Shown here: positions 22,239-54,679 of the stretch, piece after piece | How positions within the stretch are numbered: the first letter of the stretch is position 1 | Layout: every line of letters starts with the position of its first letter | NCBI RefSeq assembly: GCF_016406085.1 | Contig: NZ_JAEHFJ010000006.1 | Location: forward strand, 124,001-188,000 | DNA from: Aureibaculum flavum | GTDB taxonomy: Bacteria > Bacteroidota > Bacteroidia > Flavobacteriales > Flavobacteriaceae | Length of the DNA: 64,000 nucleotides | Direction: 5' to 3' | The notes under the pieces: generated by a model | What the model was told of the DNA's origin: nothing | The model's database searches: none | What the model saw: the letters and a program-made list of their open reading frames with translations, nothing else | Position numbers and translations under genes: made by a program

Positions 22239-22301
22239 AAATTTACTAAAAAGTTAAATATTGGTTAAATTCGTATCATTATTAACTCAAACACTAATTA
22301 T

Positions 22302-25300
22302 ATGAAATTCAGAAAACATTATGTTTTACTCTTTCTATCTATGTTTATTTCATGGATGGTAAGTGCACAGTCTGTTACCGTTAATGGTACAATTAAAGAT
22401 GGTAGTGGAGAACCTGTTCCTGGGGCCACTATTCTAGTAAAAGGAACAACACAAGGAACAACATCAGATTTTGATGGAAACTATCAAATCGATGTTTCGT
22501 CTGAAGGTGTACTCGTTTTTAGCTTCGTCGGATTTACAACGGTTGAAGAACACGTAAATGGGAGAACTGAAATTAACGTTACTCTAAACGAAGATGCTCA
22601 AGCTTTAGAAGAAGTTGTAGTAGTGGGTTATGGTACACAAAAGAAAAGTGTGGTAACCGGTGCTATTTCTAGTATCAAACAAAGTGATTTAGAAGACTTA
22701 CCTATTACAAGGGTCGAACAATCATTACAAGGTAGAGCTTCTGGTCTTACTATAGCGTCTAATTCTGGTCAACCAGGATCTTCCTCAACCATAAGAGTAC
22801 GTGGTATTACAACATTAAATAATAACAATCCGTTGTGGGTAGTTGATGGCGTTGTAGTAGACAATGGAGGAATTGGTTATTTAAATCAGGCCGATATCGA
22901 GTCTATCGAAGTTTTAAAAGATGGTGCTTCTGCAGCCATTTATGGTTCTAGAGCCGCTACCGGAGTTATTTTGGTAACTACTAAAAAGGGTAAAGCTGGC
23001 AAAATGAATGTCAATTACAATGGATATGTAGGTGTTTCATCACCATCACGGAAATTAGATTTATTAAATGGTACTCAATATGCAACTTTAATGAATGAAG
23101 CCTCTATAGCAGGTGGTGGTTCCATTTTATTTGCAAACCCAGAATCTTATGGAGAAGGTACAGATTGGCAAGATGAAATTTTTAACAATGGAGCCGTTCG
23201 TACTAGTAACGAATTAAGTTTAAGTGGTGGTAATGACAAATCTACTTTCTATGTTTCCTTTGGTTTAACTGATCAAGAAGGTATTGTAGCTACTAAAATT
23301 TCAAATTATGTTAGACAAAATATACGTTTGAATTCTACGCATAAGATTACGGATAAAATTACTTTCGGACAAACAGCTGCTTATTCTCATGAAAAAGTAG
23401 TTGGAATTGGGAATACTAATAGTGAATATGGTGGACCATTAGCATCTGCTATTAACTTAGATCCATTAACGCCAGTGGTAGAGACTGATCCTGTTTTGGC
23501 AAATCAAGCTCCTTATACAAATGCTGGTATTTTTAGAAATAGTAATGGTGATCCTTATGCCATTTCAAGCTTAGTAGGTCAAGAAATGGCGAATCCATTG
23601 GCATATATACAAACTAGGTTAGGTAACTATCAATGGTCAGATAATTTTGTTGGAAATGCTTATGTAGAAATAGAACCCATTGAAGGTTTAAAAGTTAGAT
23701 CAACTGTTGGTGCTAAGCTAGCCTATTGGGGTGAAGAGAACTTTACACCTGTGTCTTATTTAAACTCTGCATTTGTTGTAGGTCAAAATAACATCAATAA
23801 ACAAACGAATAGAGGTTTTGCATGGAACATAGAAAATACTGTTTCTTATGATAAATCCATAGGTGATCATAATTTTACGGCATTACTAGGTCAGGGTACT
23901 TATGTTGATGGAATTACAGGTAAAAGTTCTGTTACCTATTACGATATTCCTACTAATGATTACAGAGAAGCTGCATTTATTTCCGGTCATCCTGCTGATA
24001 AAATCACGGCTTACGCTGTAGATGATTATTCACACACCGTGTATTCACTATTTGGTAGATTAAATTATAATTACAAGGAAAAATATATGTTTACTGGAAT
24101 TGTTCGAAGAGATGGTTCTACAAAATTTGGTGATAATAATAAATTTGGTTATTTCCCGTCATTTTCAGCTGGGTGGAATCCTGTTTTAGAAGATTTTTGG
24201 CCTGAAAACAATGTAGTAAATCAATTGAAAATTAGAGGTGGATACGGTGTTGTTGGTAATGATTCAAGTGATAATTTTTTATATTTAGCAACCATAGGAA
24301 GTGGTCGTAATTACCCAATTGGCACAGCCGGTTCTGTAGTAGCTGGTAATAGTCCAAATGCACCATCAAACCCTGATTTAAAATGGGAAGAAACTAGTCA
24401 ACTTAATATAGGTTTTGACGCTAGATTCTTTCAATATTTTAGTTTTACTTTTGATTATTATAATAAAAAAACAACCGGAATATTACAACAAATTGTATTA
24501 CCAGGTTATATTGGCACCACTGGAAATCCATGGGGGAATGTAGCTGACATGGATAATAAAGGGGTAGATTTAGAATTAGGTTATTCTAAAACATTTGAAG
24601 ATTTTAAAGTTTCTGCAAATGCAAATATCGGTTATGTAAAAAATGAGGTTACTTATTTAGGTAACGGTGTTGACTTTTTAACCGGAGGCGAAAGTATTCA
24701 GTCTAGTACTTATCCTATTACAAGAACACAAATTGGACAACCTTACAGTTCTTTTTATGGATTCAAAACGGATGGTATCTTCCAAAATCAAGCTGAAATA
24801 GATGCGTATACCAATACTGATGGAAGTTTAATTCAACCGAATGCTGTACCTGGTGATTTTAGATATGTTAATGTTGATGGAGAAGGAACTATAACTTCTG
24901 ATGACAGAACTTTTATTGGAAATCCATTACCTGATTTCACTTTCGGATTTACTGTAAATCTTTCCTATAAAAATTTCGATTTTATGGCATTTGCACAAGG
25001 TGCGGCTGGCAACCAAATTTATCAAGCGTTAAGACGTTTAGATATTGGTAGTGCCAATTACCAAACTAATGCATTAAATAGATGGACTGGAGAAGGTACT
25101 TCTAATTCTTATCCGAGATTAACTACAAATGACACTAATTTGAATTTTAACAACCCTTCTGATTTCTATTTAGAAGATGGGGATTATTTGAGATTTAAAA
25201 CCATTCAATTGGGTTATACGTTGCCAAATTCTATTATTGATAAAATAGGTTTATCTAAAATTAGATTATACATAACTGGAGAAAATTTATTCACTTTTAC

Positions 25301-27858: not shown

Positions 27859-27952
27859 AGCCTAACCAATTTATAAACTCTTGTTATTCTTAAAACATAT
27901 AGAAGTCTAACAATTGACATAAAACAAATATTTATTTGAGTTAGTAAAGATT

Positions 27953-27987
27953 ATAGCCCGTAGTTCTAAAGATTGCGGGCTATTTTC
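27953..27987 (+). terminator. Terminator or attenuator between the susCD block and the enzymes
   Basis: ATAGCCCG (27953-27960), a 15-nt loop and CGGGCTAT (27976-27983) followed by TTTT. It lies 95 nt after the glycan-binding gene. It probably stops most transcripts there, leaving the transporter block more strongly expressed than the glycoside hydrolases. Confidence 0.75.
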
Positions 27988-40937: not shown

Positions 40938-40947
40938 AATATAGTTT

Positions 40948-40971
40948 GGTTGGTTAGTTAGTTAGTTAGTT
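40948..40971 (+). repeat. GGTT/AGTT tetranucleotide tract before the fasciclin terminator
   Basis: Two GGTT and four AGTT units in direct succession, 10 nt after the stop of the fasciclin gene and directly before its terminator hairpin. The same tract-then-hairpin order is found on the minus strand at 54244-54319 and 54521-54584. Confidence 0.85.
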
Positions 40972-41006
40972 AAAAGGCCTTAATACAATTGTATTAAGGC
41001 CTTTTT
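40972..41006. terminator. Perfect palindromic terminator between fasciclin and MORN genes
   Basis: A 34-bp perfect palindrome (left arm AAAAGGCCTTAATACAA, centre CAATTG) followed by T. The A/T flanks make it usable from both sides: for the fasciclin gene (plus) and the convergent MORN gene ending at 41019 (minus). Confidence 0.9.
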
Positions 41007-54243: not shown

Positions 54244-54319
54244 AAAAAAAAATGGGTATTGTTTATGAACCAATACCCATTATTTAACTAACTAACTAAC
54301 TAACTAACTCAAATAATAT
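54244..54319 (-). ncRNA. Predicted small RNA, copy 1 (UUAG repeat plus terminator)
   Basis: The minus strand carries TAAATTTG (54324-54331), an exact -7 box. After a short leader come six AGTT units (54286-54309). A terminator follows with an 11-bp perfect stem AATGGGTATTG / CAATACCCATT, a 9-nt loop and nine Ts ending at 54244. Predicted length about 76 nt. No ORF of note. Promoter, tract, hairpin and T-run are all repeated in copy 2. Expression is inferred. Confidence 0.6.
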
Positions 54320-54381
54320 ACTACAAATTTAAGGTAGAATTTTTTGATTAATGTTAAATTACTATTAAACAATTTGCAATT
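54244..54381 (-). repeat. Direct duplication, unit 1
   Basis: About 138 bases, similar to 54521-54640 throughout: terminator, AACT tract, promoter box, and an upstream block containing TTTAACATTAA (minus strand) at the same distance from the box. Main difference is the number of AACT units, six against three. Confidence 0.8.
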
Positions 54382-54520
54382 AATGTTAATAATTGTTAAA
54401 ATTTTAAGATTTAAATTGAATTATATGGAAATTAATTATTTTCAATTAGAAGGGTCGAAATCTAAAATAGAAGTTTTCTAGAAAATTGTTTATTTAAAAA
54501 AAAGTATTTCAGTTCTATTC

Positions 54521-54584
54521 AAAAAAAAATGGGCATTGTTTATGAACCAACACCCATTATTTAACTAACTAACTCAAATAATAT
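54521..54584 (-). ncRNA. Predicted small RNA, copy 2 (UUAG repeat plus terminator)
   Basis: Same layout as copy 1: TAAATTTG box on the minus strand (54589-54596), three AGTT units, hairpin AATGGGTGTTG / CAATGCCCATT with the same 9-nt loop, and nine Ts ending at 54521. Two stem positions differ from copy 1 and remain paired only as U-G and G-U in minus-strand RNA. Predicted length about 64 nt. Confidence 0.6.
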
Positions 54585-54640
54585 ACCGCAAATTTAAGGT
54601 GGAATTCATCGTTTAATGTTAAATTAATATTAAACAATTT
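54521..54640 (-). repeat. Direct duplication, unit 2
   Basis: About 120 bases, second copy of the unit described for 54244-54381; 12 of the missing bases are explained by three fewer tetranucleotide units. Confidence 0.8.
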
Positions 54641-54663
54641 ATGCTTTGTGTTAAATAATGTTA

Positions 54664-54679
54664 ACGATAACGTTATCGT
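54664..54679. promoter_or_regulatory. 16-bp perfect palindrome, operator-like
   Basis: ACGATAACGTTATCGT is a perfect palindrome with a central CG, the style of LacI-family operators. It lies about 70 bases upstream of the copy-2 small-RNA promoter (minus) and about 100 bases upstream of the uvrB promoter (plus). No regulator gene is adjacent. Confidence 0.5.

Follow-up and report, generated by a model that had tools for sequence, protein, structure and literature searches.

Two short and closely similar units of Aureibaculum flavum occupy the gap that separates uvrB from an ABC-2 permease gene, in a window of 64,000 nucleotides (the whole stretch of DNA analysed in this study). The question raised by this locus is what these twin units encode and on what their products would act. 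The preferred reading, to which a probability of roughly three in four is assigned, is that the twins are dedicated genes of a paralogous, partly 3'UTR-encoded family of trans-acting small RNAs (sRNAs) in Flavobacteriaceae that represses translation of susC.

Organization of the twin units

The two units are direct copies on the minus strand (copy 1 at 54244-54399, copy 2 at 54521-54664, each span running from the upstream boxes through the -7 box, seed and GUUA tract to the terminator), and without gaps they match each other over 55 nt at 96% identity and over 103 nt at 83%. As an earlier note on this DNA had described, they sit at this place against the direction of both neighbours, the permease gene and uvrB being on the plus strand, and carry their parts in the same order: an upstream block ending in TTTAACATTAA, an exact TAAATTTG box (54324-54331 and 54589-54596), a GUUA run, and a stem-loop followed by nine T. 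The 14-nt seed, TTATTTGAGTTAGT, occupies 54303-54316 in copy 1 and 54568-54581 in copy 2, and the intrinsic terminators, each with an 11-bp stem and U9, occupy 54244-54281 and 54521-54558. Each RNA would start a few bases past the TAnnTTTG box, carry the seed UUAUUUGAGUUAGU near its 5' end and stop at the terminator, giving a predicted minus-strand transcript of about 60-80 nt with its 5' end at or just before UUAUUUGAG. The predicted folds of both copies are better than those of shuffled versions (z of -3.6 and -2.9), and in both UUAUUUGA pairs with GUUAAAUAA, so the seed would not be wholly free.

Upstream of the promoter box, an alignment of 14 units delimits a conserved region at 54348-54399 in copy 1, consisting of TTAACAATTATTAACA (54399-54384) and TTGTTTAATAGTAATTTAACATTAA (54372-54348), and at 54613-54664 in copy 2 (54664-54649 and 54637-54613). 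Paired TTAACA boxes lie within it, about 65-80 bases 5' of the seed (54384-54399 and 54649-54664, minus strand), and are kept in nearly all 14 units. These conserved boxes may point to a dedicated activator of the twins, with the upstream regions as its putative sites. Just 5' of copy 2, at 54664-54679, there is also a perfect 16-bp palindrome, ACGATAACGTTATCGT, which is kept in one related unit (L031) and imperfect in another (L032); it presumably resembles a LacI-type operator.

Rfam gave no match at the gathering score across the 64 kb window and only seven sub-gathering matches (E<=10) on 10 related loci. A known RNA family or riboswitch is disfavoured by these searches, in agreement with the earlier note, which had found no family by name for the units. 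A search of the uvrB DNA against plasmids returned no match.

Conservation within Aureibaculum

Similar units in related genomes, which the earlier note had named as support for its reading, do occur. Seventeen genomes of the GTDB genus were compared, the own one and those of Aureibaculum luteum and A. marinum among them; 12 gave a match at E<=0.001 and nine carry a full unit, amounting to 14 units in one to three tandem copies per genome. All 14 adjoin uvrB, and the permease was found by motif beside 13. The TAnnTTTG box and ATTTGAGTTAG are invariant across the 14 units, the longer TTATTTGAG is present in 13, and the order of seed and then intrinsic terminator holds in every one, with the seed partly paired in the predicted folds of the twins. 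Over the same units the terminator stem has 99.4% standard pairs and 12 cells changed on both sides; stem pairing, both-side cell changes and covariation score were each reached in 0 of 500 shuffles, while two further stem measures, the number of pairs with both-side changes (278/500) and the number of pair types (482/500), do not exceed the shuffles.

The tetranucleotide tract behaves differently from these parts. Read by eye, 11 of the 14 units have three GUUA units, L036 has two, L046 is irregular, and six occur only in copy 1, which makes the long tract look like a local expansion. The earlier count of six units against three was correct, but the tract as the key part finds no support, since it varies in length and conservation begins upstream of it. 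Given this variation in repeat number, a UUAG tract that binds a protein was rejected as the main feature.

A further possibility is that the twins are an ordinary repeat, a mobile duplication or a small ORF without any regulatory role. The one to three tandem copies per genome, the expanded repeat in copy 1 and a short ATG frame (MGIGS) readable by eye in the twins speak for such an origin; the synteny, the invariant box and seed within drifting flanks, and the covariation of the stem speak against it, and this explanation is considered very improbable. A mobile repeat was rejected on synteny in particular, and a small ORF because the ATG is not conserved, being missing in several units (e.g. 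L033 and L035-L038). The twins appear to be two complete, non-coding transcription units, as had been suggested from the window itself; they are real and very probably sRNA genes.

Copies of the seed elsewhere in the genome

The seed extends beyond the uvrB locus. Pattern searches together with about 0.32 Mb of sequence stretches, on which all own-genome counts rest, located nine exact copies of the 14-mer in the genome (the twins and seven others), and each of the nine precedes an intrinsic terminator read by eye. For six of the seven other copies a sense ORF ends 9-108 bases upstream, and for the seventh (L053) there is none within 220 bases. The genes preceding them encode three SusD proteins, one lipoyl synthase and two proteins without a Pfam match, one of the latter being the third gene that closes a susC-susD operon in the window, where seed and terminator occupy 27932-27986 (plus strand). 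When variants are allowed, the element follows susD in the UTR at 7 of 33 susC loci by script, with an eighth variant (C20:515069) recognised by eye. A looser relative, TTTGGTTGGTTAGTTAGTTAGTTAGTTA, stands with a terminator and a long GTTA run after a fasciclin-domain gene in the window (40940-41006, plus strand), and its membership is uncertain. The 10-mer TTTGAGTTAG occurs 37 times in the genome compared to 16 times for the control, the sequence contexts having been examined for 30 of the 37 matches.

The lipoyl synthase 3'UTR carries the seed in two Aureibaculum species, the present one (L051) and A. marinum (L234, genome G003), where the gene was recognised by its identical C-terminal residues. 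The complement of the seed, CTAACTCAAA, is also found in 3'UTRs before terminators, by eye at three loci of this genome (L194, L196 and L198) and at four loci of other genera (L098, L115, L231 and L277). These three, and the four antisense 3'UTR copies among the 127 classified below, are accounted for by the preferred reading only as possible decoys for the seed.

Distribution of the seed across Flavobacteriaceae

Of 199 Flavobacteriaceae genomes, 81 (own included) contain the exact 14-mer and 118 do not; by hand count there are 138 copies compared to 20 of the reversed control. Outside the family the excess disappears, since 286 genomes from other families of the class yielded 13 copies in 11 genomes and 36 of the control (again a hand count). 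A total of 127 copies were classified, those set apart being the nine in the own genome, a second exact copy at the uvrB locus of G003 and one near a contig end (G185). Seventy-three of the 127 stand in sense orientation before a terminator, 55 of them in a 3'UTR and 18 without a nearby stop codon, although the classifying script tests sense classes first, so that an ambiguous locus counts as sense. Eleven more lie in a 3'UTR without a terminator found, 23 are antisense just upstream of an ORF start, four are antisense in a 3'UTR with a terminator, eight fall inside ORFs, one is sense upstream of a start, and seven belong to none of these classes. By comparison, 1000 random positions in the same loci gave 22 in the sense 3'UTR and terminator class, 21 in the sense class with a terminator only, 19 antisense at a start and 19 antisense in a 3'UTR with a terminator.

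The genes 5' of the 55 copies encode most often an isocitrate dehydrogenase-type domain (Iso_dh, 18) or ankyrin repeats (12), followed by DUF4197 (4), SusD_RagB (3) and a T9SS sorting tail (3). Three Iso_dh hosts were scanned with NCBIfam, and all are leuB over the cut-off. The leuB-like 3'UTRs, whose proteins end in GQSTII, keep TTATTTGAGTTAGTCA in several genera (L099, L103, L104, L114, L118 and others), often a few or zero bases past the stop codon. On the target side, 20 of the 23 antisense-site ORFs match the SusC model TIGR04056 and 18 the signature TIGR04057 (E<=0.001, as fragments), and in 15 of the 23 the complement ends 7 bases before the ATG. Most of these SusC ORFs begin with the same residues (MKLKL...) and are probable orthologs; the counts are not independent, because most exact antisense sites share this one susC type and the 3'UTR hosts likewise include ortholog groups.

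At 15 of the 127 loci, two seeds were seen by eye in a row, TTATTTGAGTTAGT and then TTTGAGTTAG or a close variant, followed by a terminator, often ACCGGTGGGAGCACCGGT (L107, L252, L255, L260, L268, L270, L278, L284, L290, L299, L301, L318, L116, L286 and L321, all in other genera). Nine of these were assigned to the 3'UTR class on account of ORFs lying as far as 145 bases off. In many of the 15 a TTAAC box occurs together with a TTTTG-like box 6-8 bases ahead of the seed, the boxes being looser than in Aureibaculum (L290 lacks the second box). These are putative promoters, and the two-seed units are probably dedicated sRNA genes as well.

The copies between a stop codon and a terminator, behind susD, susCD operon ends, lipA, leuB and ankyrin-repeat genes, would be probable 3'UTR-derived members of the family. 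A seed just before the terminator is the usual layout of processed 3'UTR sRNAs. It is nevertheless possible, if distinctly less likely, that the 3'UTR copies stay within long mRNAs, acting as decoys or letting the 3' end of the mRNA pair with a susC start, which would leave the twins and similar dedicated units as the sole true sRNAs. The 20-mer TTATTTGAGTTAGTTAGTTA, with 30 exact matches in named genomes, would agree with this: seven have the TAnnTTTG box, all in units beside uvrB, while the other 23, many of them in Winogradskyella, have no such box within 22 nt and stand before GC-rich terminators (by eye). Some susCD operons moreover bear the element at their own end, and antisense copies occur in some 3'UTRs. 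It is the position of the seed directly before the terminator that favours release.

Complementarity to susC starts

Complementarity to the seed at susC starts is also present within the twins' own genome. For 33 susC genes, the region from -45 to +15 around the start codon gave a mean duplex energy with the seed of -11.4 kcal/mol, whereas 126 other ORFs averaged -6.4 kcal/mol (p = 6e-13), and none of 200 dinucleotide-shuffled seeds reached either the susC mean or the difference. The 33 genes comprise 32 over the TIGR04056 cut-off and one below it (C12:478966), with 22 weaker rows left out; the 126 controls come from the window and the stretches of about 0.32 Mb and are enriched for susC neighbours; and the start codon was taken by script as the first in-frame ATG. 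When all 159 starts are ranked, the best are all susC, namely the top 14 with copy 2 and the top 20 with copy 1; other genes mix in below these ranks, and not all of the top 45 starts are susC.

In many susC genes the seed would pair with ACUAACUCAAAUAA or a G-U tolerant variant of it, in a stretch that lies for the most part between -22 and -8 relative to the start codon. In the window, the predicted target site lies at 22281-22301 (plus strand), where attaactcaaacactaattat precedes the ATG of the susC gene starting at 22302 (best duplex -10.8 kcal/mol with copy 2). At least 8 of 11 positions match in 22 of the 33 susC sites, and the remaining 11 are weaker, with fewer than 8. In those 22 sites, departures at C are C-to-T changes, which keep G-U pairing, in 22 of 25 cases compared to 22 of 47 in control ORFs, and the site starts at -23 to -13 in 19 of 22 compared to 10 of 31 controls, both statistics being indicative only in view of ortholog groups.

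Complementarity follows the family boundary. Twenty-nine Flavobacteriaceae susC starts, chosen on protein score, averaged -8.9 compared to -7.3 with shuffled seeds (0 of 200 reaching the observed value), and no complementarity was seen at the starts of 27 susC genes belonging to other families of the class (-6.7 compared to -7.0, with 145 of 200 shuffles reaching it). The two groups differ at p = 0.0006, in a comparison that left out L394, but they differ in GC content as well (24% and 29%), a confounder that the shuffles meet only in part. With complementarity confined to the family and the 14-mer not above control outside it, the susC motif and the seed have roughly the same distribution. 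The earlier note had suggested a tract that binds a protein or pairs with mRNA leaders; the pairing half of that suggestion finds support in the predicted complement at susC starts, whereas the tract as a protein site does not. The seed copies elsewhere and the susC complement had escaped that note because other genomes are needed to see them.

These results also bear on whether the seed is instead a cis-acting element of mRNA 3' ends, such as a terminator aid, a stability or processing signal or a protein site, with the twins titrating the same factor. The 73 of 127 copies directly before a terminator fit such an element, as do the orthologous 3'UTRs that keep the seed (Iso_dh/leuB and ankyrin-repeat genes). 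However, it does not predict an exact complement at susC starts (20 of the 23 antisense start sites), nor the in-genome susC complementarity or its absence outside the family, and it is regarded as unlikely.

Comparison with known sRNA systems

The closest likeness is to the FopS and GibS sRNAs of Bacteroides thetaiotaomicron, which, in the available text of PMC11697453 and PMC7366714, are multicopy paralogous sRNAs with sigma-ABfr-type promoters, in which an intrinsic terminator follows a single-stranded 5' seed, and which pair with susC translation initiation regions. The present family resembles them in having several paralogues in a single genome (the nine exact seed copies before terminators), in putative promoters of this type and in the complementarity of the seed to susC initiation regions; seed and terminator come in the same order, the seed being partly paired in the predicted folds of the twins. 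One FopS member is described as 3'UTR-derived (PMC11697453, in the text available); here the terminator-linked copies are mostly in 3'UTRs, 55 of the 127 lying between a stop codon and a terminator by script and a further 11 having no recognised terminator.

According to the same available text, FopS-10 pairs with the start region of susC and abolishes its translation in vitro, an effect relieved by RbpB (PMC11697453). By analogy with FopS-10, the twins most likely repress susC, and pairing over the initiation region would most likely block translation of the SusC/SusD nutrient importers. The opposite sign, in which pairing at susC starts activates translation, is improbable: position alone does not fix the sign, but the site lies over the initiation region, and FopS-10 acts on its own susC target as a repressor.

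The partner protein distinguishes the two systems. FopS has RbpB, whereas the genome of the twins, which are also without an Rfam match, has no RbpB-type RRM_1 protein at E<=0.001 (the Bacteroides ihuae control was positive), and none was found in 119 of 120 Flavobacteriaceae genomes searched. The sole RRM_1 protein among the 120 is encoded at G133:C20:551210-551419 (L340). Since no RRM_1 protein was found in these genomes, likeness of function only, and not FopS membership, is claimed.

Other systems are more distant. DonS-type cis-antisense RNAs of Bacteroides likewise control susC homologs at the RNA level but are encoded divergently to their susC target, as far as the available text of PMC7366714 describes them; the twins have the ABC-2 permease gene and uvrB as neighbours and would act in trans. 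Flavobacterium psychrophilum likewise has a conserved sRNA, Rfp18, which its description in the accessible part of PMC9723704 sets apart from the twins as strongly folded and pairing with metalloprotease messages through its third stem-loop. Among 3'UTR-derived sRNAs that tune porins, MalH of E. coli, as presented in the accessible part of PMC8081044, originates at the end of an uptake operon and acts on a nutrient porin of the outer membrane; it is unrelated in sequence and phylum, and the seed described here is reused at many operon ends.

Implications for nutrient uptake

Marine and freshwater flavobacteria, which degrade much algal polysaccharide, have SusCD systems among their major nutrient importers. 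Among the best-ranked matches in the open-access literature searched, no sRNA control of susC in Flavobacteriaceae was found, and nothing on the seed itself, the related work there being that on Bacteroides sRNAs and Rfp18; GAGTTAGTTAG as text returned only matches judged unrelated from their titles and the beginnings of their abstracts. Comparison of the genomes suggests an undescribed RNA network that tunes nutrient uptake in flavobacteria. Whether this network is a distributed one, in which operon ends and dedicated sRNA genes emit one shared 14-nt seed and jointly silence SusC starts without an RRM protein, is an evenly balanced proposition. The idea is directly testable, as the seed is defined, the predicted targets are listed and one lineage can act as a negative control. 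If it is true, transcription of an uptake or biosynthetic operon would dampen the uptake of other nutrients, and control of susC by sRNAs would be suggested to have recurred in Bacteroidota, both where RbpB is present and where it is not.
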